64,000 nt of DNA, from NCBI RefSeq assembly GCF_007904085.1, contig NZ_CP042326.1, forward strand, positions 434,001-498,000, read 5' to 3'. Origin of the DNA: Euhalothece natronophila Z-M001. Its GTDB lineage: Bacteria > Cyanobacteriota > Cyanobacteriia > Cyanobacteriales > Rubidibacteraceae. Positions 3,079 through 52,894 of the stretch are shown one piece after another. The notes below the pieces were generated by a model. That model was not told the origin of the DNA. It searched no databases and was given only the letters and a program-made list of their open reading frames with translations. The position numbers were made by a program, and so were the translations under genes. Numbering within the stretch: the stretch's first letter is position 1; every line of letters begins with the position of its first letter.

Positions 3079-3440
3079 TGTTGTTTTGCGTTCCTAGCGA
3101 TTGTCTGTTTTTATACTCATGACTATGGGAATACTCATTATAACATTGCTCTGTCCTTTGTACAGGTGCTTTTTAAGAAATGATGAACGACTTGTCCTTT
3201 TTCCTTCCTCGTTTGTCAACCAATGATCAATCATTAAGAAACGATTAGAGAGAAAAATAAGCAATTAAACTTACTTCTAACCCTGTTTTGCCACTTCTGG
3301 ATGACTAATGACTAAGAACCCCTACAAAAAGCTTTTTCTAGTAGGGTGAAGCTGACCTACCCACCCTACTCACTCCTAAAAAACATAACTGTGAAGTTAG
3401 GAAGCCGTCGACATAATCTTCGATTTGTCGAGGGAGGATG
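3079..3440. other. Gene-free stretch between rpsO and the DUF751 gene with structured repeats
   Basis: No coding frame was recognised here. The stretch holds the rpsO upstream region, a short piece of the heptad repeat (GATGACTAATGACTAA near 3300), a hairpin built from CCCTAC and GTAGGG arms around a self-complementary AAAAGCTTTT core (about 3319-3346), and a probable right end of a TnpB-type insertion element (about 3395-3444). Confidence 0.5.
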
Positions 3441-14168: not shown

Positions 14169-14772
14169 TCATTAGAGACTGTTCCTAAAGAAAATATAAA
14201 GAATGGCGCGATTGCCTTTGGCAAATGGCGGAGCCATATCGCTGACCAAAACAGTTCAAACTAGAACTAGAAATAGATGCAACGATTCGCTATGAAGATG
14301 ACGAAACGTCGCTCCTATCCTACAGACTTAAAGGTCGTAAACGACATATTTTGGTAGATTCTCAGGGATTGCTCCTAGCAGTTGTCGTTAGTGAAGCCAA
14401 GAGGCACCGAACGTGTTGGTGGAATGGCTCTTTTACTAGAAGTGGAATCCCAACTCCCCAACTTGTCTTTAATTTGGGTGGATGCTGGGTACCAAGGACC
14501 CAACTTTAGCAGGGCAGTCGAGAAGTTAACTCAAGCCCAAGTAGAAGTTGTCAAACGTTCGAGTAAAGCGTTTGAGGTTCTTCCTCGACGATGGGTGGTG
14601 GAAAGAACCTTTGCTTGGCTGGTTCAAAATCGACGCTTAGTTATTGATTCAGAGAAATTACCAGAAATCAGTGAAGCTCTCATCAAAGTAGCCATGACTC
14701 GCCTGATGTTAAAACGGTTAGCTATGTTTTCAGCTTAGTCTTAAGGTTTATTTTAGGAACAGTCTCTAATGA
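14169..14772 (+). mobile_element. Decayed IS5-type insertion sequence with intact terminal inverted repeats
   Basis: The ends match over 21 bases as perfect inverted repeats: the left arm at 14169-14189 includes GAGACTGTTCCTAAA and the right arm at 14752-14772 is its complement. The outermost six bases (TCATTA/TAATGA) also belong to heptad-repeat DNA flanking both sides, so the true tips are probably GAGACTG and CAGTCTC, and a target duplication cannot be fixed. The inside is only about 560 bases, shorter than a full IS5 element, and its transposase is frameshifted and 5'-truncated. It separates psaI from menC. Confidence 0.8.
14333..14738 (+). pseudogene. IS5-family DDE transposase fragment, frameshifted
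   Basis: The piece at 14333-14400 reads GRKRHILVDSQGLLLAVVVS in one frame, and the rest reads from about 14400 in another (ERVGGMALLLEVES, then WVDAGYQGP with the second catalytic Asp, then RRWVVERTFAWLVQNRRL with the IS5-type catalytic Glu). One frameshift therefore divides the catalytic domain, and the first half of the protein is missing, so it should be inactive. An intact sister copy elsewhere could still mobilise the element through its ends. Confidence 0.8.
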
Positions 14773-14792
14773 CCAATGACTAATAACTAATG
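14767..14792 (-). repeat. Heptad-repeat DNA before menC (reverse orientation)
   Basis: TAATGACCAATGACTAATAA and neighbouring bases carry the heptad units TGACCAA/TGACTAA, the reverse complement of the units found in the nif spacers. They run into the menC start codon. Matching units (TTAGTCATTA) lie on the far side of the insertion sequence. Confidence 0.7.
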
Positions 14793-23974: not shown

Positions 23975-24060
23975 TGTCCTTTGTTGTTTGTCGTTTGTCC
24001 TTCGTAAACCAATGACCAATGACTAATGACTAATGACCAATGACTAATGACTAATGACTA
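23975..24060 (-). repeat. Heptad-repeat spacer between nifV and nifT
   Basis: Read on the minus strand, units TTAGTCA/TTGGTCA come first, directly at the nifV stop, then a TTTACGAAGGAC segment, then AAACAAC/AAAGGAC units that give nifT its ribosome binding site. Confidence 0.85.
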
Positions 24061-25167: not shown

Positions 25168-25243
25168 TATTGTCCTTTGTTGTTTGTCCTTTGTTGTTTG
25201 TCCTTCGTCCTTCGTAAACTAATGACTAATGACCAATGACTAA
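25168..25243 (-). repeat. Heptad-repeat spacer between dps and nifV
   Basis: On the minus strand the spacer begins with the TAG stop of the dps gene inside TTAGTCA units, and ends with AAAGGAC units eight to ten bases before the nifV ATG. It has the same order of unit types as the other spacers. Confidence 0.85.
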
Positions 25244-27519: not shown

Positions 27520-28947
27520 ATGTCACCAACTACTAACGAAAGTCTTAAAAGAGTAAGTAACGCAATCAAATCCTCATCAAACTGTGGAAGTGGTTGCAGT
27601 CCAGCAACTTCTCCTGAACTTGATCCGAAAGTTCAAGAAAGAGTTGAAAATCATCCCTGCTATAGCGAGGATGCTCATCATCACTATGCTCGGATGCACG
27701 TCGCTGTTGCCCCGGCTTGTAACATTCAGTGTAATTTTTGCAATCGCAAATATGATTGTGCCAATGAAAGTCGCCCGGGGGTCGTCAGTGAACTTCTTTC
27801 TCCAGAAGAAGCGGCTCATAAAGTGTTGGTAGTGGCTGGCCAAATTCCGCAAATGAGTGTTTTAGGAATCGCGGGCCCTGGCGATCCACTAGCAAACCCC
27901 AAAGAAACCTTCCGTACCTTTGAACTCGTCAAAGAAAAAGCCCCTGATATCAAACTTTGCTTATCCACTAATGGGCTTATGCTTCCCGATTACGTGGAAC
28001 GCATCAAAGAATTAGAAATTGATCATGTCACCATTACCATCAACATGATTGATCCCAAAATTGGGGCAGAAATTTATCCTTGGGTGCGCTATAACCGCAA
28101 GGGCTGGACAGGAGAAGAGGCTTCCAAAATTCTGCACGAACGGCAGATGGAAGGATTACAAGCCCTAAAAGAAGCAGATATTCTCTGCAAAGTTAACTCA
28201 GTGATGATTCCGGGGATTAATGATCAACATCTGGCGGAAGTCGATGAAGTCGTCCGCGCTAAAGGAGCATTTATTCACAATATCATGCCTCTGGTTTCTG
28301 CTCCTGAACATGGCACTCACTTTGGGTTAATTGGACAAAGAGGCCCCACCCCCAAAGAACTTAAAACCCTACAAGATAATTGTTCTGGGAATATGAAAAT
28401 GATGCGTCACTGTCGTCAGTGTCGCGCTGATGCCGTGGGCTTACTTGGGGAAGATCGCTCTAAGGAATTTACCAAAGAGAAAATGCTGGAGATGACCCCA
28501 GAATACAATCTGGAAAAACGCCAAGAAGTTCATGCTGACATCAAGCACATTCAAGATGCCATGAAAACGGCAAAAGCAGAAAAAGTCACTGCTAATAAGC
28601 AACGAGGAGAAAAAATATTAGTCGCTGTAGCCACTAAAGGCGGTGGCGTTGTTAATCAGCATTTTGGTCATGCCAAAGAGTTCCAAATTTTTGAAGTTGA
28701 TGGCGTAGAAGCCAACTTCGTGGGACATCGTAAGGTTGATCATTACTGTCAAGGGGGTTACGGCGAAGAAGCAACCCTCAACAACATTATTGAGACCATC
28801 CAAGACTGTAAAGCTGTTCTTGCCCTCAAAATTGGTGATTGTCCCCAAGACTTTCTACAAAAAGCTGGCGTTCAGCCGGTTGAAGGTTACGACACCATTA
28901 ATGCTTTAGCGTTGAAATTCTACGAAGAATCTATGGTTAGTCATTAG
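27520..28947 (+). CDS. nifB: FeMo-cofactor biosynthesis radical SAM protein NifB
   Basis: NifB fuses two 4Fe-4S clusters and adds the central carbon and a sulfur to make NifB-co, the FeMo-co precursor. The 475 residues show the radical SAM cluster motif [14 protein letters not shown] near residue 70, [11 protein letters not shown], and a C-terminal NifX-like domain (from about 365; [20 protein letters not shown]) for cofactor binding. The last residues MVSH and the TAG stop are read from heptad-repeat DNA. The ribosome binding site is weak. Confidence 0.97.
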
Positions 28948-29055
28948 TCATTAGTCATCAGTCATTGGTCACTGGTTTACGAAGGATAAAGGACGAAGGA
29001 CAAAGGACGAAGGACAAAGGACAAAGGACAAACAACAAAGGACAAATAATAAAGG
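28937..29055 (+). repeat. Heptad-repeat spacer between nifB and fdxN
   Basis: Six or so TTAGTCA/TTGGTCA units come first, giving the nifB stop; then GGTTTACGAAGGA; then many AAAGGAC/GAAGGAC/AAACAAC units up to the fdxN ribosome binding site (AAAGGAG). It is one of the longest copies in the window. Confidence 0.9.
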
Positions 29056-29064
29056 AGAAAAACA

Positions 29065-29421
29065 ATGAGTTATGTAATTTCTGACAACTGTATTGCTTGT
29101 GGTAGCTGTTTATCCCAATGCCCCACCGGAGCCATTAGCCAAAATGATAACGGTAAATTTGCGATTGATCCTAATGCTTGTAACCACTGTGTTGGCTTTT
29201 ATGGTGTTCCCCAATGTATGTCAGTTTGCCCAACCAAAGATAGCTGTAGTCCCAGTCTCGCAAGTGTGATTCCAGCAACAGAAGGGAAATATTGGGATCG
29301 CTGGTTTGGGACTTATGAGCATTTGACTGCGCGACTCCAAGCCAAACAAGAAACCCGATATTGGCAAAATTGGTTTGATGTTTATTCCGAAAAATTAGAA
29401 CGCTTAATGGTTAGTCATTAG
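29065..29421 (+). CDS. fdxN: Nif-cluster 4Fe-4S ferredoxin FdxN
   Basis: This 118-residue bacterial-type ferredoxin has two cluster motifs, CIACGSCLSQCPTGAIS near residue 9 and CNHCVGFYGVPQCMSVCP near residue 39, plus a C-terminal tail with a WDRWFGTYEHL / WQNWFDVYSEKL repeat. FdxN lies between nifB and nifS in cyanobacterial clusters and is thought to supply electrons for NifB. The last four residues (MVSH) and stop come from the heptad repeat. Confidence 0.93.
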   Translation: MSYVISDNCIACGSCLSQCPTGAISQNDNGKFAIDPNACNHCVGFYGVPQCMSVCPTKDSCSPSLASVIPATEGKYWDRWFGTYEHLTARLQAKQETRYWQNWFDVYSEKLERLMVSH

Positions 29422-29460
29422 TCATTGGTCATTAGTCGTTTATTTGCAAACAACAAAGGA
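29411..29460 (+). repeat. Heptad-repeat spacer between fdxN and nifS
   Basis: A short copy: TTAGTCATTAG units including the fdxN stop, then GCAAACAACAAAGGA before nifS. Confidence 0.85.
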
Positions 29461-29470
29461 TACCAGAGAA

Positions 29471-30670
29471 ATGAATGAGCCGATTTATTTTGATAATAAT
29501 GCCACCACCAAAATAGATGAAGAGGTCATCGCAACGATGCTTCCTTATCTCCAGACCTATTATGGAAACCCCTCTAGTATGCACACCTTCGGCGGACAAG
29601 TCGGTCGCGCTGTCAGAGAGGCAAGAGGTCAGGTTGCGTCTTTACTCGGGGCGCAGGAATCAGAAATTATCTTTACCAGTTGTGGCACAGAAGGGGATAA
29701 TGCGGCTATTCTCGCAGCCCTCAAAGCCCAGCCGAATAAAAAACAGATTATTACCACTAAGGTAGAACATCCTGCGGTTTTAAATCTGTGTCGAAAACTG
29801 GAAAAAGAGGGCTATGTTGTTACCTATCTTGGAGTTGATAGTAAAGGTCAACTTGATTTAGGGGAACTAGAAGCCGCCTTAACCAATGACACAGCCGTTG
29901 TTTCCATTATGTATGCGAACAACGAAACTGGCGTAGTCTTTCCCATTGAAGAAATTGGACAGCGAGTTAAGGCGTATGGGGCTTTATTTCATGTGGATGC
30001 GGTGCAAGCCGTGGGAAAAATTCCCTTCAATTTAGAAACCAGTTCCATTGATTTCCTGACTCTCTCTGGTCACAAAATTCATGCCCCAAAAGGAATTGGC
30101 GCGTTATATGTTCGTAAAGGTGTGCGCTTTCGTCCCCATTTGATTGGAGGACATCAAGAACGAGGGCGTAGAGGGGGAACGGAAAATGTCCCTGCGATTG
30201 TGGCGCTGGGAAAAGCCGCAGAACTGGCTAGAAAACATTTACCGAGTGTTGCTGAAGAACAGCGTTTACGGGACAAGTTAGAACAAGGCATTCTGGCGAC
30301 TATTCCTGATGCTGCGGTGAATGGAGATCCGATTAACCGTTTACCGAATACCAGCAATATTGGTTTTAAGTACATCGAAGGAGAAGCAATTTTACTGTCT
30401 CTTGATCAATATGGGATTTGTGCATCTTCTGGTTCGGCTTGTACGTCCGGGTCGCTTGAACCGTCTCATGTTCTTCAGGCGTTAGGGCTTCCTTATACCG
30501 TTTTACATGGTTCAATTCGGTTTAGTCTTTCTCGCTTTACCACCGAAGCAGAAATCGATCGCGCTTTAGATGTTTTACCCAGAATTATCAATCGTCTCCG
30601 CGACCTCTCTCCTTTTAATAATGACAATGCGGACTGGTTAAAAGAACAGTCATTAGCGGTTAGTCATTAG
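29471..30670 (+). CDS. nifS: Cysteine desulfurase NifS
   Basis: NifS is the PLP enzyme that takes sulfur from cysteine for NifU. I start at 29471 (MNEPIYFDNNATTKIDEEV), nine codons inside the longest frame, where the family begins. The 399 residues show the PLP Lys in LSGHKIHAPKGIGALYV, the catalytic Cys region CASSGSACTSGSLEPSHVLQ, and HVDAVQAVGKIP. The C-terminal residues AVSH and the stop are read from the heptad repeat. Confidence 0.96.
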   Translation: MNEPIYFDNNATTKIDEEVIATMLPYLQTYYGNPSSMHTFGGQVGRAVREARGQVASLLGAQESEIIFTSCGTEGDNAAILAALKAQPNKKQIITTKVEHPAVLNLCRKLEKEGYVVTYLGVDSKGQLDLGELEAALTNDTAVVSIMYANNETGVVFPIEEIGQRVKAYGALFHVDAVQAVGKIPFNLETSSIDFLTLSGHKIHAPKGIGALYVRKGVRFRPHLIGGHQERGRRGGTENVPAIVALGKAAELARKHLPSVAEEQRLRDKLEQGILATIPDAAVNGDPINRLPNTSNIGFKYIEGEAILLSLDQYGICASSGSACTSGSLEPSHVLQALGLPYTVLHGSIRFSLSRFTTEAEIDRALDVLPRIINRLRDLSPFNNDNADWLKEQSLAVSH

Positions 30671-30769
30671 TTATTGGTCATTGGTCATTGGTCATTAGTC
30701 ATTAGTCATTGGTTTACAAACAAAGGACGAAGGACAAACAACAAAGGACAAACAACAAAGGACAAAATC
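30660..30769 (+). repeat. Heptad-repeat spacer between nifS and nifU
   Basis: About eight TTAGTCA/TTGGTCA-type units are followed by GGTTTACAAACAAAGGACGA and repeated AAACAACAAAGGAC units. The last AAAGGAC lies seven bases before the nifU ATG. Confidence 0.9.
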
Positions 30770-32747: not shown

Positions 32748-34211
32748 ATGTCAACTAAAGAAAGAAATCAAGAAGTAATCAAAGAGGTTCTGGAAGGCTA
32801 TCCAGAGAAAGCTGGTAAACGGCGAAGTAAACATATTGGCACTTACGAAGAAGCAAAATCTGGCGAAGAAGGAAAATCAGGCTGCGACGTTAAATCCAAC
32901 AAGAAATCACTGCCTGGAGTCATGACTGCCCGTGGTTGCTCCTTTGCTGGCGCAAAAGGGGTAGTTTGGGGCCCAGTTAAAGATATGGTTCATGTCAGTC
33001 ATGGGCCAGTGGGTTGTGGTTACTACTCTTGGGCAGGTCGTCGGAACTACTACACTGGCTATACCGGGGTAGATACCTTTGGCACTATGCAATTCACCTC
33101 TGACTTCCAAGAAAAAGATATTGTCTTTGGGGGTGATAAAAAACTGGCTAAACTCATTGATGAAGCCGAAACCCTATTTCCTCTGAATCAAGGAACAACC
33201 GTTGAGTCAGAATGTCCAGTCGGGCTAATTGGGGATGATATTGAAGCCGTCGCCCGTGCCAAAGGCAAAGAAACAGGTAAGCCCGTCGTTCCAGTTCGTT
33301 GTGAAGGTTTCCGAGGGGTTTCTCAATCCTTAGGACACCACATTGCTAATGATAGCGTTCGGGATTGGATTTACCCCAAAGCCGACGAGTATCGCAAACT
33401 GCAAGACGGATTTGAGTCCACCCCTTATGATGTCAACATTATCGGAGACTATAACATCGGTGGGGATGCTTGGCCGAGTCGGCTCTTACTAGAAGCCATT
33501 GGCTTGCGCGTCATTAGCCAATTTTCTGGCGATGGCTCTTTTAATGAAGTGACAATGAGCCCCTTGGCTAAACTCAATCTCATCCACTGTTATCGGTCAA
33601 TGAACTATCTCTGCCGACACATGGAAGAGGAATATGGCATTCCTTGGATGGAATACAACTTATTCGGCCCAACCTACATTGCTAAGTCTCTGCGAGAAAT
33701 TGCGGCTCAATTTGACGAAACCATCCAAGCAAATGCAGAGCGTGTTATTCAGGAATATCAAGCGTCTATGGACGCAGTTTTGGCAGAATATCGTCCGCGC
33801 CTAGAAGGGAAAAAAGTGATGATGATGGTGGGTGGACTTCGCCCCCGTCACGTTATTCCAGCGTTTGAAGACTTGGGCATGGAAGTGATTGGAACTGGTT
33901 ATGAGTTTGGGCATAACGATGACTACAAACTAACCAGTGAATACCTAAAAGACGGAACGCTCATCTACGACGATGTCAGCGGTTATGAATTTGAGGAATT
34001 TGCCAAAAAGCTCAAGCCCGATCTGATTGCTGCAGGGATTAAAGAGAAGTATGTCTTCCAAAAAATGGCACTTCCCTTCCGTCAAATGCACTCTTGGGAT
34101 TATTCCGGACCTTATCACGGCTATCACGGCTTTGCTGTCTTCGCTCGGGATATGGATTTAGCGATTAATAACCCCACTTGGAGTTTAATCGAAAATCCTT
34201 GGTCGAATTAG
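32748..34211 (+). CDS. nifD: Nitrogenase molybdenum-iron protein alpha chain
   Basis: NifD carries FeMo-co and shares the P-cluster with NifK. The 487 residues show the P-cluster Cys in [25 protein letters not shown] and [15 protein letters not shown], and the FeMo-co ligands Cys (about residue 280) and His near the C-terminus ([15 protein letters not shown]). It is continuous: no nifD excision element as in some Anabaena strains. Its stop (AAT TAG) opens the heptad-repeat spacer. Confidence 0.98.
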
Positions 34212-34315
34212 TCATTAGTCATTGGTCATTAGTCATTAGTCATTGGTCATTAGTCATTAGTCATTGGGCTACAAACAACAAAGGACGAAGGACAAAGGAC
34301 AAACAGCAAAGGCTA
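34207..34315 (+). repeat. Heptad-repeat spacer between nifD and nifK
   Basis: Repeated TTAGTCA/TTGGTCA units follow the nifD stop, then GGGCTACAAACAACAAAGGA and further GAAGGAC/AAAGGAC units. After it a 40-base unique stretch with AAAAGGT precedes nifK. Confidence 0.9.
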
Positions 34316-36324: not shown

Positions 36325-37692
36325 ATGACTAAACCAAAAGTCGCAGACCTCTTACACGAACCCGGTTGCGGCCATAATCACAAAAAAGGCGATAATAAGG
36401 CTTGTAGCCAACAAGCCAAACCAGGGGCAGCCCAAGGCGGTTGTGCCTTTGATGGGGCTTCGATTACCCTAGTTCCCATTACTGATGCCGCTCATTTGGT
36501 TCATGGCCCGACGGCGTGTGCGGGCAACTCTTGGGGTAGTCGCGGTAGTCTTTCTTCAGGGGCAACCACTTATCAACTGGGACTAACCACAGATGTTAAG
36601 GAAAATGACATTATTTTTGGGGGCGAGAAAAAGTTATATAGCGCGATCGCGCAAGTGATTAACCGCTATCATCCACCTGCAGTCTTTGTTTACGCTACCT
36701 GTGTCACGTCTCTTATTGGTGATGATCTAGAGGCAGTTTGTCGCGCAGCAACAGAGCAGTTTCAAACCCCAACTATCCCCGTTCAAGCCCCCGGTTTTAC
36801 GGGAACAAAAAATTTAGGGAACCGCCTAGCAGGAGAAGCCCTATTTGAGTATGTTGTAGGTACGCAAGAACCAGAATATACCACCCCTTATGACATTAAC
36901 CTCATTGGGGAATATAACGTTGCTGGGGAACTTTGGGGGGTGCTTCCCCTTTTAGAAAAAGTGGGGATTCGCGTTCTCTCCAAAATTACAGGAGATGCCA
37001 CCTTCCGAGAAATCTGTTATGCCCATCGCGCCAAACTTAATGTCATGATTTGCTCGAAAGCCCTGATTAATCTGGGTCGCAAAATGGAGGAAACTTATGG
37101 CATTCCCTACATTGAGGAATCTTTCTATGGCGTTGCTGACATGAACCGATGTTTACGTCATATTGCCGAAAAATTAGGGGATGAAGAGTTAAAAGCGCGA
37201 GTGGAAACGCTGATTGCGACGGAAACGGCAAAACTGGACACGGCCCTTGCCCCCTATCGGAAACGACTACAAGGTAAACGCATCGTTCTTTATACTGGCG
37301 GTGTAAAAAGCTGGTCGATTATTTCTGCTGCCCAAGATTTGGGGATGAAAGTGGTTGCCACCAGCACCAAAAAAAGCACCGAAGAAGATAAAGCCAAAAT
37401 CAAGGAATTACTTGGCGAAGACGGCATTATGCTCTCTAAAGGCAATGCCAAAGAACTTCTAAAAGTTATTGAAAACACCAATGCGGATATGCTTGTCGCT
37501 GGTGGACGTAATCAATATACCGCTCTCAAGGCTCGGATTCCCTTTCTGGATGTCAACCAAGAACGCCATAATCCCTATGCCGGTTATCGGGGACTTATAG
37601 AAATGGCAAAAGAGTTTGATCACGTTCTTCATAGTCCGATTTGGGAACAGGTGCGAGAACCTGCCCCTTGGTCATTAGTCACTAGTCATTAG
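36325..37692 (+). CDS. nifE: FeMo-cofactor scaffold protein NifE
   Basis: NifE forms with NifN the scaffold on which NifB-co becomes FeMo-co. The 455 residues resemble NifD: CSQQAKPGAAQGGCAFDGAS, HGPTACAGNSWGSRG and ATCVTSLIGDDLEAVCRA carry the cluster Cys. The C-terminus (WSLVTSH) and stop are read from the heptad-repeat DNA, and so differ from the usual family end. Confidence 0.96.
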   Translation: MTKPKVADLLHEPGCGHNHKKGDNKACSQQAKPGAAQGGCAFDGASITLVPITDAAHLVHGPTACAGNSWGSRGSLSSGATTYQLGLTTDVKENDIIFGGEKKLYSAIAQVINRYHPPAVFVYATCVTSLIGDDLEAVCRAATEQFQTPTIPVQAPGFTGTKNLGNRLAGEALFEYVVGTQEPEYTTPYDINLIGEYNVAGELWGVLPLLEKVGIRVLSKITGDATFREICYAHRAKLNVMICSKALINLGRKMEETYGIPYIEESFYGVADMNRCLRHIAEKLGDEELKARVETLIATETAKLDTALAPYRKRLQGKRIVLYTGGVKSWSIISAAQDLGMKVVATSTKKSTEEDKAKIKELLGEDGIMLSKGNAKELLKVIENTNADMLVAGGRNQYTALKARIPFLDVNQERHNPYAGYRGLIEMAKEFDHVLHSPIWEQVREPAPWSLVTSH

Positions 37693-37818
37693 TCATTAGT
37701 CATTGGTTATTAGTCATTAGTCATTGGTTATTAGTCATTAGTTGACAAAGGACGAAGGACAAACAACGAAGGACAAAAGATGAAGGACAAACAACAAGCC
37801 ACAAAGGACAAACAGCAA
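37671..37818 (+). repeat. Heptad-repeat spacer between nifE and nifN
   Basis: The longest copy with both unit types: about ten TTAGTCA/TTGGTTA-type units, then GACAAAGGACGAAGGACAAA and many AAACAAC/AAAGGAC units. The last AAAGGAC lies about ten bases before the nifN ATG. Confidence 0.9.
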
Positions 37819-39123
37819 ATGACAACCATAACCAGCCCACAAAAATCTCTCTCTGTTAACCCCCTAAAACAAAGTCCGCCTTTAGGGGCAGCATTAGCCT
37901 TGTTAGGCTTAAAAGGCTTAGTTCCCCTTCTTCATGGTTCACAAGGTTGCACCGCGTTTGCCAAAGTGTTGTTAGTCCGACATTTTCGAGAAGCCATCCC
38001 CATTGCGACAACGGCGATGACTGAGGTTTCCACAATTTTAGGAGGAGAAGAAAATATTGAAGAAGCAATTCTCACCTTAGTGGAAAAAGCAGAACCTGAG
38101 CTGTTGGGATTACTAACAACAGGGTTAACGGAAACTCGTGGGGATGATATGCCCTATATCCTCAAATTATTCCGTCAACGTCATCCTGAACTGAAGTCGC
38201 TGCCCATTATTTTGGCTTCTACTCCTGATTATAAAGGAGGCTTACAAGAGGGTTATGCCACTGCGGTTAAATCCATTGTTGAAACCGATTACGGTGCGCC
38301 CCCCCAAGAAACCTCGCAACCAGTCATTACGGTTTTAGCAGGGTCATTGTTGGGGCCAGGGGATGTGCAAGAAATTAAAGAGATCATCGAAGCCTTTGGG
38401 TTAACACCGCTGGTAATTCCGGACTTATCGGGGTCTCTTGATGGTCATCTTGATGATAGTGAGTATAACAGTAAAACATCTGGGGGAACTTCGTTACAAC
38501 AGTTACAGCAATTAGCGCGATCGCGCTTTACCATTGTCATTGGGGAAAGTATGCGTCCTGCTGCTGAAGTGTTGCAGCAAAAGTTTGAGACTAACTATCA
38601 AGTATTTCCCCGTTTATCAGGCTTAAAAACTGTTGATCAATTCCTGTGGTTACTCAGTCAAATTAGCGAATACCCTGATACCGTTCCGAAAAAATATCAA
38701 CATCAACGTCGGCAATTACAAGATGCTATCTTAGATAGTCATTTCTATCTTGGTGGCAAGAAAATTTCCCTCGCCTTAGAACCCGATTTACTCTATCAAA
38801 CCAGTTGGTTATTACAGGAAATGGGGGTCAATATTCAAGCGGCTGTTACGACGAGTAAATCCCCATTATTAAATGATTTACCTGTAGATACAGTCACCAT
38901 TGGAGACTTTGGAGATTTAGAAGAATTAGCCCCCAATTCTGACTTAATTATTACCAATTCTCAAGGCAAATTAATTGCCGATAAACTGGATATTCCCCTC
39001 TATCGGTTAGGATTCCCAATTTATGATCGCTTGGGTAATGGAACTCGTTGTTTAACCAGTTATCGCGGAACAATGCAGTTATTATTTGACCTCAGTAATC
39101 TTTTTATTGAACACAGTCATTAA
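37819..39123 (+). CDS. nifN: FeMo-cofactor scaffold protein NifN
   Basis: NifN is the NifK-like partner of NifE. I start at 37819 (MTTITSPQKSLSVNPLKQS); the frame extends 13 codons into repeat DNA (KDKQQ-type residues) which is unlikely to be translated but has its own possible ribosome binding site. The 434 residues show LKQSPPLGAALALLGLKGLV, HGSQGCTAFAK and TTGLTETRGDDM. It ends HSH, TAA. Confidence 0.94.
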   Translation: MTTITSPQKSLSVNPLKQSPPLGAALALLGLKGLVPLLHGSQGCTAFAKVLLVRHFREAIPIATTAMTEVSTILGGEENIEEAILTLVEKAEPELLGLLTTGLTETRGDDMPYILKLFRQRHPELKSLPIILASTPDYKGGLQEGYATAVKSIVETDYGAPPQETSQPVITVLAGSLLGPGDVQEIKEIIEAFGLTPLVIPDLSGSLDGHLDDSEYNSKTSGGTSLQQLQQLARSRFTIVIGESMRPAAEVLQQKFETNYQVFPRLSGLKTVDQFLWLLSQISEYPDTVPKKYQHQRRQLQDAILDSHFYLGGKKISLALEPDLLYQTSWLLQEMGVNIQAAVTTSKSPLLNDLPVDTVTIGDFGDLEELAPNSDLIITNSQGKLIADKLDIPLYRLGFPIYDRLGNGTRCLTSYRGTMQLLFDLSNLFIEHSH

Positions 39124-47277: not shown

Positions 47278-47898
47278 TCACAACTTTTCAAAGATGGTTA
47301 ACCCTACCCCTGCTAACAACCAATAATGATTAATCTGAGTAAACCCAATTTGCTTTCCCATTTCTTCTCGCTTAGAAAAACTGTAAAGGCGAATTTTTCC
47401 AGCGCCGATGGGAATCTCTTGATAACCATCATTTCCTATCCCAACCCAATCAATTAAATAATACTTTCCTTGAGGTTTTAGGGTGCGATAAACTTCCGAT
47501 AAGACTTGTAAGGGTTCTGGATAATGAAGAAAGCTAATGGTATTAAAAACTGCATCGAATTGATTATCGGCTGTTGGTAACGTAGCGGCATTTCCTTTAA
47601 TATACACTAAGCGGGGTGCATGACGACGAGACTTTCGCGCTTGGCGTAACATTTCTGAAGAGATATCTAAACCGATGCCAAAAAGGTCTGGATAAATTTT
47701 TGCTAAACGGTCTAATAAGCGTCCTGTTCCACAGCCTAAATCTAATACCCAAGGTGTTTTCGGTAATGTGAGATAATCCAATAATCGTCGATGAAGGGTT
47801 TTATAAAATAAGGAAGAAATTAAATCATCATAAAATAATGCCCAAATATTAAAGAGTTGAATTTTTTGTTGAATCTCTTGCTCACTATTTGAGGTCAT
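47278..47898 (-). CDS. Class I SAM-dependent methyltransferase (UbiE/Methyltransf_11 type)
   Basis: The 206-residue enzyme carries SAM motif I VLDLGCGTGRLLDRLA, motif II (DAVFNTISFLHYPEP) and GKYYLIDWVGIG. The substrate is unknown. The start codon is inside short heptad-repeat DNA (47896-47916), in reverse orientation to the nif spacers. It follows sufS after 68 bases and could be at the end of that operon. Confidence 0.85.
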   Translation of the reverse strand: MTSNSEQEIQQKIQLFNIWALFYDDLISSLFYKTLHRRLLDYLTLPKTPWVLDLGCGTGRLLDRLAKIYPDLFGIGLDISSEMLRQARKSRRHAPRLVYIKGNAATLPTADNQFDAVFNTISFLHYPEPLQVLSEVYRTLKPQGKYYLIDWVGIGNDGYQEIPIGAGKIRLYSFSKREEMGKQIGFTQINHYWLLAGVGLTIFEKL

Positions 47899-47916
47899 TA
47901 GTCATTAGTCATTTGT
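47896..47916 (+). repeat. Short heptad-repeat copy at a methyltransferase start
   Basis: TCATTAGTCATTAGTCATTT lies over the minus-strand ATG, so on the coding strand it reads AATGACTAATGACTAATGA. Here the orientation relative to the gene is opposite to that in the nif spacers, and there is no AAAGGAC half. Confidence 0.7.
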
Positions 47917-51385: not shown

Positions 51386-51459
51386 GTTTGTTGTTTGTTG
51401 TTTGTCCTTCGTTGTTTGTCCTTTGTAAACCAATGACTAATGACCAATGACTAATGACT
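51386..51459 (-). repeat. Heptad-repeat spacer between sufB and sufC
   Basis: Read on the minus strand: TTAGTCATTAGTCATTGGTC units over the sufB stop, then GGTTTACAAAGGACAAACAA and further AAACAAC units before sufC. It has the same build and orientation as the nif spacers, outside the nif cluster. Confidence 0.9.
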
Positions 51460-52894
51460 AACCCACAGAGTTTTCTAATTTCAAAGCAAGTAATTTATCC
51501 GCTTCTGCAGCAAACTCCATAGGTAACTGATTAAAGACTTCTTTACAGAAACCACTGACAATCATGGAAACGGCATCTTCTTCCGAAATTCCCCGTTGGG
51601 CAAAGTAGAATAGCTGATCTTCCCCAATTTTGGCAGTTGAGGCTTCATGTTCCACTTTGGTGCGATTATTATCAACTTGGATATAGGGGAAGGTATTGGC
51701 TTCGGCTTCATCTCCTACTAACATCGAGTCACATTGGGAGTAATTTCTTGCACCATCGGCTTTTGGTCCCATTTTTACTAAGCCACGATAGCTATTTTGA
51801 GAATGACCAGCAGAAATTCCTTTAGAGATAATGGTACTCTTGGTATTTTTCCCAATATGAACCATTTTTGTCCCTGTATCAGCTTGCTGGTAATTATTGG
51901 TTAAAGCAATAGAGTAAAATTCCCCAACGGAGTTGTCACCAGCTAAAACGCAACTGGGATATTTCCAAGTAACAGCAGAACCAGTTTCTACTTGTGTCCA
52001 AGAGATTTTAGAATTTTTGCCTTTACAGAGTCCACGCTTGGTGACAAAGTTATAAATACCGCCTTTGCCCTCTTCATCGCCAGCAAACCAGTTTTGAACC
52101 GTAGAATATTTAATATCGGCATCGTCTAAGGCGACTAATTCTACGATCGCGGCGTGAAGTTGGTTAGAATCGTACATGGGCGCGGTACAGCCTTCTAAGT
52201 AGCTGACAGAAGCCCCTTCTTCTGCGACAATGAGGGTGCGCTCAAATTGTCCTGCTTCATCGGTATTGATGCGGAAATAGGTGGAAAGTTCCATGGGGCA
52301 TTGTACGCCTTTGGGAACATAAACAAATGACCCATCACTAAAGACCGCAGAGTTTAAGGCAGCAAAAAAGTTATCTCCACTGGGAACCACACTGCCTAAG
52401 TATTTTTTCACTAATTCAGGATACTCTTGTAAGGCTTCTGAAATAGAACAGAAAATAACCCCTTCTTCAGCTAATTTTTCTTTAAAGGTGGTGGCAACAG
52501 AAACACTGTCAAAGATGGCATCTACCGCAACGTTACCGAGGCGTTTTTGTTCCGATAGAGGAATGCCGAGTTTCTCAAAGGTTTCTAGAAGTGCAGGATC
52601 CACTTCGTCTAAACTTTCTTTCTTCTCTTCCTTTTGTTTTGGTGCAGAGTAGTAGATAATATCATTAAAATCAATGGGACGGTAGCCAACGTGCGCCCAA
52701 TTCGGTTCTTTCATGTTCAGCCACTGTCGGTAGGCTTTGAGGCGAAAGTCTAGCATGAACTCAGGTTCATTTTTCTTGGCTGAGATCATGCGGATAATAT
52801 CTTCATTCAGTCCCCGAGGTAAGGTTTCTGTTTCGATATCAGTTACGAAACCGTATTTATAGGGTTGGTTGATTAAAGTTTTAGTGGCAGTCAT
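51458..52894 (-). CDS. sufB: Fe-S cluster assembly protein SufB
   Basis: SufB is the main scaffold subunit on which clusters are built. The 478 residues show [60 protein letters not shown] and [20 protein letters not shown]. It heads the suf operon, divergent from sufR. Its TAG stop lies in the heptad-repeat spacer. Confidence 0.96.

Follow-up and report, generated by a model that had tools for sequence, protein, structure and literature searches.

Composite heptad-repeat spacers in the nif and suf operons of Euhalothece natronophila: probable gene-less forms of an element with a four-helix-bundle gene

Heptanucleotide tandem repeats (STRR) were reportedly described in cyanobacteria by Mazel in 1990, and heptads are said to have been found in the Anabaena nif operon by Mulligan and Haselkorn in 1989. 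Such repeats have long been described without an owner. Here, we analyze heptad repeats in a stretch of 64,000 nucleotides of Euhalothece natronophila Z-M001 (contig 1, NZ_CP042326.1, positions 434001-498000; 3.52 Mb genome), further called the window, which contains the nif cluster and the suf operon. Eight same-strand gaps of the window hold a composite spacer, in which an array of left units (TTAGTCA/TTGGTCA) leads through a joint into an array of right units (AAAGGAC/AAACAAC/GAAGGAC). Like STRR, these composites have a 7-nt unit that is repeated in tandem, lies in intergenic regions and occurs in many copies, with a copy number that changes by whole units. Unlike STRR, they are no simple direct arrays without a partner: all eight comprise two different, inverted arrays and a joint, and they are linked to a four-helix-bundle gene. 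The repetitive extragenic palindromic (REP) sequences and REPINs with their RAYT gene follow a related scheme, as one repeat-flanked gene is accompanied by many gene-less copies elsewhere. The heptad element likewise has one flanked gene and gene-less copies, but its gene encodes a four-helix bundle rather than a Y1 transposase and its arms are tandem heptad arrays.

The four-helix-bundle gene type concerned (PF05635/TIGR02436, S23/23S rRNA intervening sequence protein) is known from rRNA. The intervening sequence in the 23S rRNA of Coxiella has complementary ends that form a stem, an S23/PF05635 open reading frame (ORF) in the loop, and tandem heptameric repeats ahead of the ORF, the first of these repeats carrying an RNase III site; the function of these proteins is stated there as not known (PMC4990558). 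The nif and suf copies differ in that they are located in mRNA spacers instead of 23S rRNA and, in the window, carry no ORF. PF05635 also resembles Avd of the diversity-generating retroelements (PMC10053308). TAACTGA heptamers of Beggiatoaceae and cyanobacteria are intergenic direct heptads, many of them just before start codons, whose transfer mechanism was not evident to the author (PMC4679880). They consist of a single unit and are not composites, and the term ‘four helix’ does not occur in that paper. The GGGAATC and GGGGA(C/T)T heptads of Xanthomonas and Nostoc are over-represented in non-coding regions and include some inverted pairs, but were studied as G-quadruplex-forming repeats (PMC4692102). 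Finally, the P6b stem of the Nostoc tRNA-Leu intron is built of 7-nt repeats whose unit class can be replaced with the structure staying similar; in contrast to the composites, it belongs to a group I intron (PMC4476775). Cyanobacterial heptads, S23 intervening sequences, the Coxiella heptamers, heptads before starts, inverted heptad pairs and the Nostoc stem are thus already in print. No paper on a general link between PF05635 and inverted heptad arrays was found in the open-access papers searched, and neither was a reading of nif spacers as gene-less forms.

We propose that the nif and suf composites are probably ORF-less (miniature) forms of an element with a PF05635 gene between inverted 7-nt arrays, and this parent element looks like the kind that interrupts rRNA genes in other bacteria. 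Its full form would consist of the four-helix-bundle gene between two inverted arrays, with the gene located at the joint; where the ORF is missing, the joint would be the tip of an imperfect hairpin. ORF-less copies may have arisen from or alongside the gene-bearing form, with slippage altering their length, and may have spread in either orientation. On the model of the Coxiella intervening sequence, the arms might pair in the RNA and then be processed, in which case an insertion within a transcript would be tolerated, as it is for the intervening sequences that RNase III removes from 23S rRNA.

The genes of the window were called with our own hexamer-based gene finder. NCBIfam backs the names nifT, nifV, dpsA, nifB, sufB and sufC, fdxN has an NCBIfam ferredoxin match below the curated cut-off, and the remaining nif names were taken from a sequence-only reading of the window by a model. 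That reading had also named the eight composite spacers, and all of them are present and run in the sense of transcription on both strands (8/8). It had further ascribed one build to all spacers; the order of left array, joint and right array indeed occurs in 8/8, but the exact joint GGTTTAC(A/G)AA only in 4/8, with AGTTTACGAA, TTTATTTGCAAA, GGGCTACAAA and AGTTGACAAA in the other four. By a simple regular expression, each spacer has 2-9 left and 2-9 right units. The composites are:

23976-24054, minus strand, nifV/nifT: left array 24013-24054, joint 24001-24015, right array 23976-23989
25172-25243, minus strand, dps/nifV: left array 25223-25243, joint AGTTTACGAA, right array 25172-25213
28937-29043, plus strand, nifB/fdxN: left array 28937-28971 (provides the nifB stop at 28947), joint 28969-28983, right array 28988-29043
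29411-29461, plus strand, fdxN/nifS: left array 29411-29431 (provides the fdxN stop at 29421), degenerate joint TTTATTTGCAAA, right array 29448-29461
30660-30763, plus strand, nifS/nifU: left array 30660-30708 (provides the nifS stop at 30670), joint 30706-30720, right array 30722-30763
34208-34307, plus strand, nifD/nifK: left array 34208-34263 (provides the nifD stop at 34211), joint GGGCTACAAA, right array 34273-34307
37668-37823, plus strand, nifE/nifN: left arrays 37668-37737, joint AGTTGACAAA, right arrays 37747-37823
51390-51461, minus strand, sufB/sufC: left array 51434-51461, joint 51422-51436, right array 51390-51424

The left array provides the stop codon of nifB, fdxN and nifS, and these three genes all end in GTTAGTCATTAG. 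The right arm of the nifE/nifN composite (37747-37823) extends beyond the predicted nifN start at 37780; the true start may therefore lie further downstream.

The link with the four-helix-bundle gene is found in the genome of E. natronophila itself, which has three PF05635 matches, all flanked by heptad arrays. The chromosomal gene (locus L189) uses the unit vocabulary of the nif composites; its ORF is positioned at the joint, between arms that follow each other in the same order as there. The joint of the composites resembles the final bases of this ORF and might conceivably be a scar left by its deletion. The other two matches are a single gene present twice on contig C2 (C2:4056-4364 and C2:71576-71884; loci L190 and L191), with arms of another heptad family (ACTGGTC and CAGTTAC). 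The L189 protein is 84% identical to the product of an ORF in the congener G004 and 87% to that of an ORF in the filamentous cyanobacterium ESFC-1 (L078). Both of these ORFs are situated at the joint in the nifS/nifU gap, with the arm order of L189; the one in G004 lies antisense between both arms and encodes a four-helix-bundle protein (TIGR02436). In a second congener, G002, the same gap still holds a fragment of such an ORF, consisting of its initial 22 codons (36 codons when the open frame ahead of its start is included) and surrounded by arm units. One orthologous spacer is thus seen filled, as a remnant and empty. A profile search gives no PF05635 ORF in the window, and the nifS/nifU gap of E. 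natronophila is the ORF-less state of the spacer that is filled in G004 and ESFC-1.

Gene and repeat also co-occur across the family. The genomes G000, G001, G002 and G006, with three, two, one and seven PF05635 matches, contain 451, 190, 419 and 84 TTRGTCA dimers, respectively, and G004, in which the four-helix-bundle ORF was seen, contains 316. The five family genomes with the gene accordingly range from 84 to 451 dimers, against 0 to 21 in reversed controls. G003 and G007, listed without a PF05635 match, have one and zero dimers. The dimer counts of two more genomes, G005 and G008, are one and zero. As dimers were counted with overlap inside arrays and the genomes are related, this co-occurrence is a pointer rather than a test.

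Throughout the phylum, 160 out of 386 genomes have a PF05635 match (139 above the curated cut-off). The flanks of 70 loci were analyzed, i.e., the 30 top-scoring ones, 39 chosen from the listed matches and two of E. natronophila, minus one with a short flank; L191 was omitted as a duplicate of L190. These loci are not independent, with 11 from genome G123, six from G374 and four from G308. A period of 7 nt flanks the gene upstream at 40 and downstream at 41 of the 70 loci (both sides: n = 33), compared to three and two in the far controls. Period 8 is found in six upstream and 14 downstream flanks and the harmonic period 14 in 17 and 22, and the other periods from 4 to 13 occur in zero to two flanks each. 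Scored over a slightly shorter span, the best periods of both flanks agree in 48 loci (7/7 in 38, 8/8 in nine and 9/9 in one), disagree in four and are found on one side only in 14 and on neither side in four.

The two flanks moreover match each other as inverted copies. Comparison of the upstream with the reverse-complemented downstream flank results in a median score of 20 within a locus and 8 across loci. A total of 51 loci exceed the 95th percentile of the cross-locus scores (15) and 21 the 99th (24.8), whereas for direct matching these numbers are six (counted from rows) and zero; 57 loci beat the best far control. The arms of related genes are often unalike but still fit each other within a locus: of 67 pairs in which the proteins are similar and the arms good, 27 have a cross-matching of at most 0.7 of own matching. 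Complementary ends are hence clear at most PF05635 loci. They are weak for L189, and for the composites they are weak but above controls.

For the composites, TTAGTCA reads TGACTAA when reverse-complemented and the right unit reads GGACAAA in the same register, with five out of seven positions matching. We therefore read the left (TTAGTCA) and right (AAAGGAC) units as putatively diverged inverted copies. When 54 composites are folded, the median of z is -1.29 for the sense strand (z < -2 in 13) and -1.62 for the other strand (z < -2 in 23), compared to 0.06 for 60 control gaps (z < -2 in four). Folded examples pair in 7-nt steps. The resulting stem is imperfect and weak, and the joint forms its tip.

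The repeats extend well beyond the nif and suf genes. The dimer (TTAGTCA)2 occurs 92 + 93 times in the genome and the exact joint TCAYTGGTTTACRAA 64 times, and since the reversed controls are both at zero, this exceeds chance. Stretches were fetched around all 64 exact joints and around part of the left-arm places. The exact joints have 19 sense, 12 antisense, 25 convergent and eight divergent contexts, which becomes 19, 11, 16 and eight over 54 spacers after collapsing two tandem arrays. One array has ten joints in tandem between convergent genes (C1:2939819-2940267, L049), spaced by 49 bp and once by 42 bp, which points to tandem growth. With a looser definition of the composite and more stretches, 58 spacers were obtained, of which seven are in the window (all sense) and 51 outside (16 sense, 13 antisense, 13 convergent and nine divergent). 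Same-strand gaps hold 29 of these 51; the neighbouring gene pairs in the same stretches are 524 same-strand, 151 convergent and 146 divergent. Outside the window, nine composites are sense and five antisense in the same-strand gaps up to 150 bp long (p = 0.42).

These counts bear on the proposal of the sequence-only reading that the repeats are placed strictly inside operons and in sense orientation, owing to selection or to a spreading mechanism that targets intercistronic gaps. Strict operon targeting was rejected on the genome-wide orientations, a test which that reading itself had put forward, and mixed orientations outside the window imply that the sense rule is a property of the nif/suf region and not of the repeat. 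Even within the window it does not hold for all left-unit arrays. The following three left-unit arrays, for which the same expression found no right array, are not in a sense intercistronic position:

3302-3315, minus strand, left-unit array only, between divergent genes
14770-14790, minus strand, left-unit array only, antisense to both neighbours
47898-47911, plus strand, left-unit array only, antisense to both neighbours

Selection and a spreading mechanism are each plausible, but nothing shows a targeting of intercistronic gaps. A comparison of close strains, which had been suggested as a check, has two sides. The congeners G002 and G004 share the nif cluster and their nif gaps hold composites with other joints, always in sense (by eye), but the repeat has been gained or lost at individual gaps. 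The nifV/nifT composite exists in E. natronophila only and is absent from that gap in both congeners, the gap before nifE has a full composite only in the congeners, and in all three genomes the nifH/nifD gap is free of composites.

The composites could be selected intercistronic signals of the nif and suf operons, providing stops in all frames, ribosome-binding sites and perhaps an mRNA-processing hairpin. Besides the consistent sense orientation in the window and in the congeners, a motif comparison in same-strand gaps of 20-200 bp speaks for such a role: a Shine-Dalgarno-like motif precedes the next start in 12 of 16 sense, two of nine antisense and 107 of 297 repeat-free gaps (sense versus repeat-free, one Fisher test, p = 0.0027, with seven of the 16 sense gaps from the window), and in six of nine sense gaps outside the window. 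In addition, a stop codon lies within or beside the left array in 10 of the 16 sense gaps. Among other nif clusters (the best 80 of 426 nifB loci), period 7 occurs in 134 of 327 gaps between neighbouring nif genes, compared to 0, 4, 12 and 10 for periods 5, 6, 8 and 9; this is a rough count, as some of these gaps hold other genes. Only one of the 80 loci, ESFC-1, has the four-helix-bundle ORF by profile. The mixture of orientations and gap types elsewhere, together with the gain and loss of the repeat at single nif gaps, nevertheless makes it very unlikely that signalling explains the composites. Under our own reading as ORF-less forms, it is still plausible that orientation is selected in tight operons: left arms that provide stop codons and right arms that provide AAAGGA ribosome-binding sites may be the reason why the sense orientation is kept in nif and suf operons, for which the motif and stop counts above lend some support. 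Alternatively, the composites may have spread as the inner part of ordinary miniature inverted-repeat transposable elements (MITEs), moved by transposases in trans, with the MITE ends later lost. Some joints are indeed inside a TATAGCG...CTGCTATA element of the same genome, and genome G308 has a cassette at two different sites (L239 and L240) in which a four-helix-bundle gene and its heptad arms lie within inverted ends, next to direct repeats of 8-9 bp (by eye); over 550 nt the two copies share 99.8% identity. Around some other copies there are terminal inverted repeats and target-site duplications, but none were seen on reading the eight window spacers. A MITE origin was for that reason rejected for the nif copies, and for the composites as a whole we judge it improbable. 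The MITE-like element of E. natronophila has ends TATAGCGTTTCTTAGTCT and GCGTGAAAACTGCTATA and 25 sites at no more than two mismatches (e.g., C1:371664-371681 and C1:632673-632690), with some heptad joints inside by eye.

A further explanation reverses the roles of gene and repeat: the hairpins would be cyanobacterial tandem repeats grown by slippage without a gene of their own, and the four-helix-bundle genes passengers that settle at the joint. The ratio of 64 exact joints to one chromosomal PF05635 gene agrees with this, and so does an orthologous site in two genomes (L250 and L258, alignable over 2.7 kb at 81%) that has kept the gene with arms of different heptads: one genome has GGGAATA-type arms, whereas in the other the GGCAAGA and GGGAATA types are mixed. 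The persistence of the gene between exchanged arms also counts in favour of our preferred reading. The arms correspond to the commoner of these two heptads in two out of three genomes. Counts of GGGAATA/GGCAAGA 19-mers are 337/72 in G328 and 28/452 in G246, as expected for their arm types, and 89/18 in G067, yet the upstream arm of its locus is of the GGCAAGA type. A general rule that arm units track the commoner heptad of the genome was dropped on this mixed outcome. G328 and G208 share one pair of counts, 161 forward and 176 reverse, which may be chance. Passengers would not lead one to expect flanks that match as inverted and not as direct copies, with unrelated units across the phylum (51 versus six of the 70 loci), nor the gene copy in a 23S rRNA gene described below, which has arms where an intergenic hairpin is not expected; the Coxiella rRNA element has tandem heptamers as well (PMC4990558). 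We consider passenger genes rather unlikely.

Several observations weigh against our preferred reading of the composites as miniature forms of the gene-bearing element. The arms of L189 match poorly by score (10.5 versus a far-control maximum of 11), so their interpretation as inverted copies is based on the reading of the units and not on the score. The stem is weak, as only the 13 of 54 composites given above reach z < -2 on the sense strand, and orientation outside the window gives no sign of selection in tight gaps. Among the 70 loci, 13 are not above the best far control and four have no period on either side. One exact short-loop search for ORF-less GGGAAYA hairpins gave none in six other genomes (0/6); good evidence for miniature forms is thus confined to the TTAGTCA family, and their generality is weakened. 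The clearest duplicated copies, L239 and L240, bear ordinary transposon-like ends, and ordinary transposition may hence explain part of the spread; movement of the heptad element itself was not caught in the loci compared.

A PF05635 match is present in 44 plasmid records, six of which come from phyla other than this one. Three of the six were read, from Azospirillum, Gemmatirosa and Riemerella, and all three have arrays on both sides of the gene, with 8-nt units in Gemmatirosa. In Azospirillum, the gene and its arms are enclosed by a 23S rRNA gene (RF02541, 277-3303 of L262), and this ties the standalone genes to the classical intervening sequences. In Riemerella (NZ_CP081930.1, L265:953-1369), the four-helix-bundle gene separates sufB from an iron-sulfur assembly gene within a suf operon and is bordered on either side by heptad-like arrays. 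It is conceivable, though we hold this only tentatively, that S23/four-helix-bundle genes with inverted heptad arrays form one widespread mobile class, in which the protein acts in trans on heptad hairpins, the arms are rewritten in concert with pairing kept, and the element hides as a processed hairpin in transcripts, namely in rRNA loops and operon spacers. If so, many unexplained cyanobacterial heptad repeats would be its gene-less copies, and the arms would be a case of a stem whose sequence is replaced while the pairing stays. The link provides both the ownerless heptads and the S23/four-helix-bundle proteins with a testable partner, and it is a caution not to take heptads in nif spacers for regulation specific to nif. 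In G123, nine near-identical four-helix-bundle genes (L195 and L224-L231) occupy different places; eight of the nine share an upstream stretch starting with ACTGACGTTACGCAC, and most end early.

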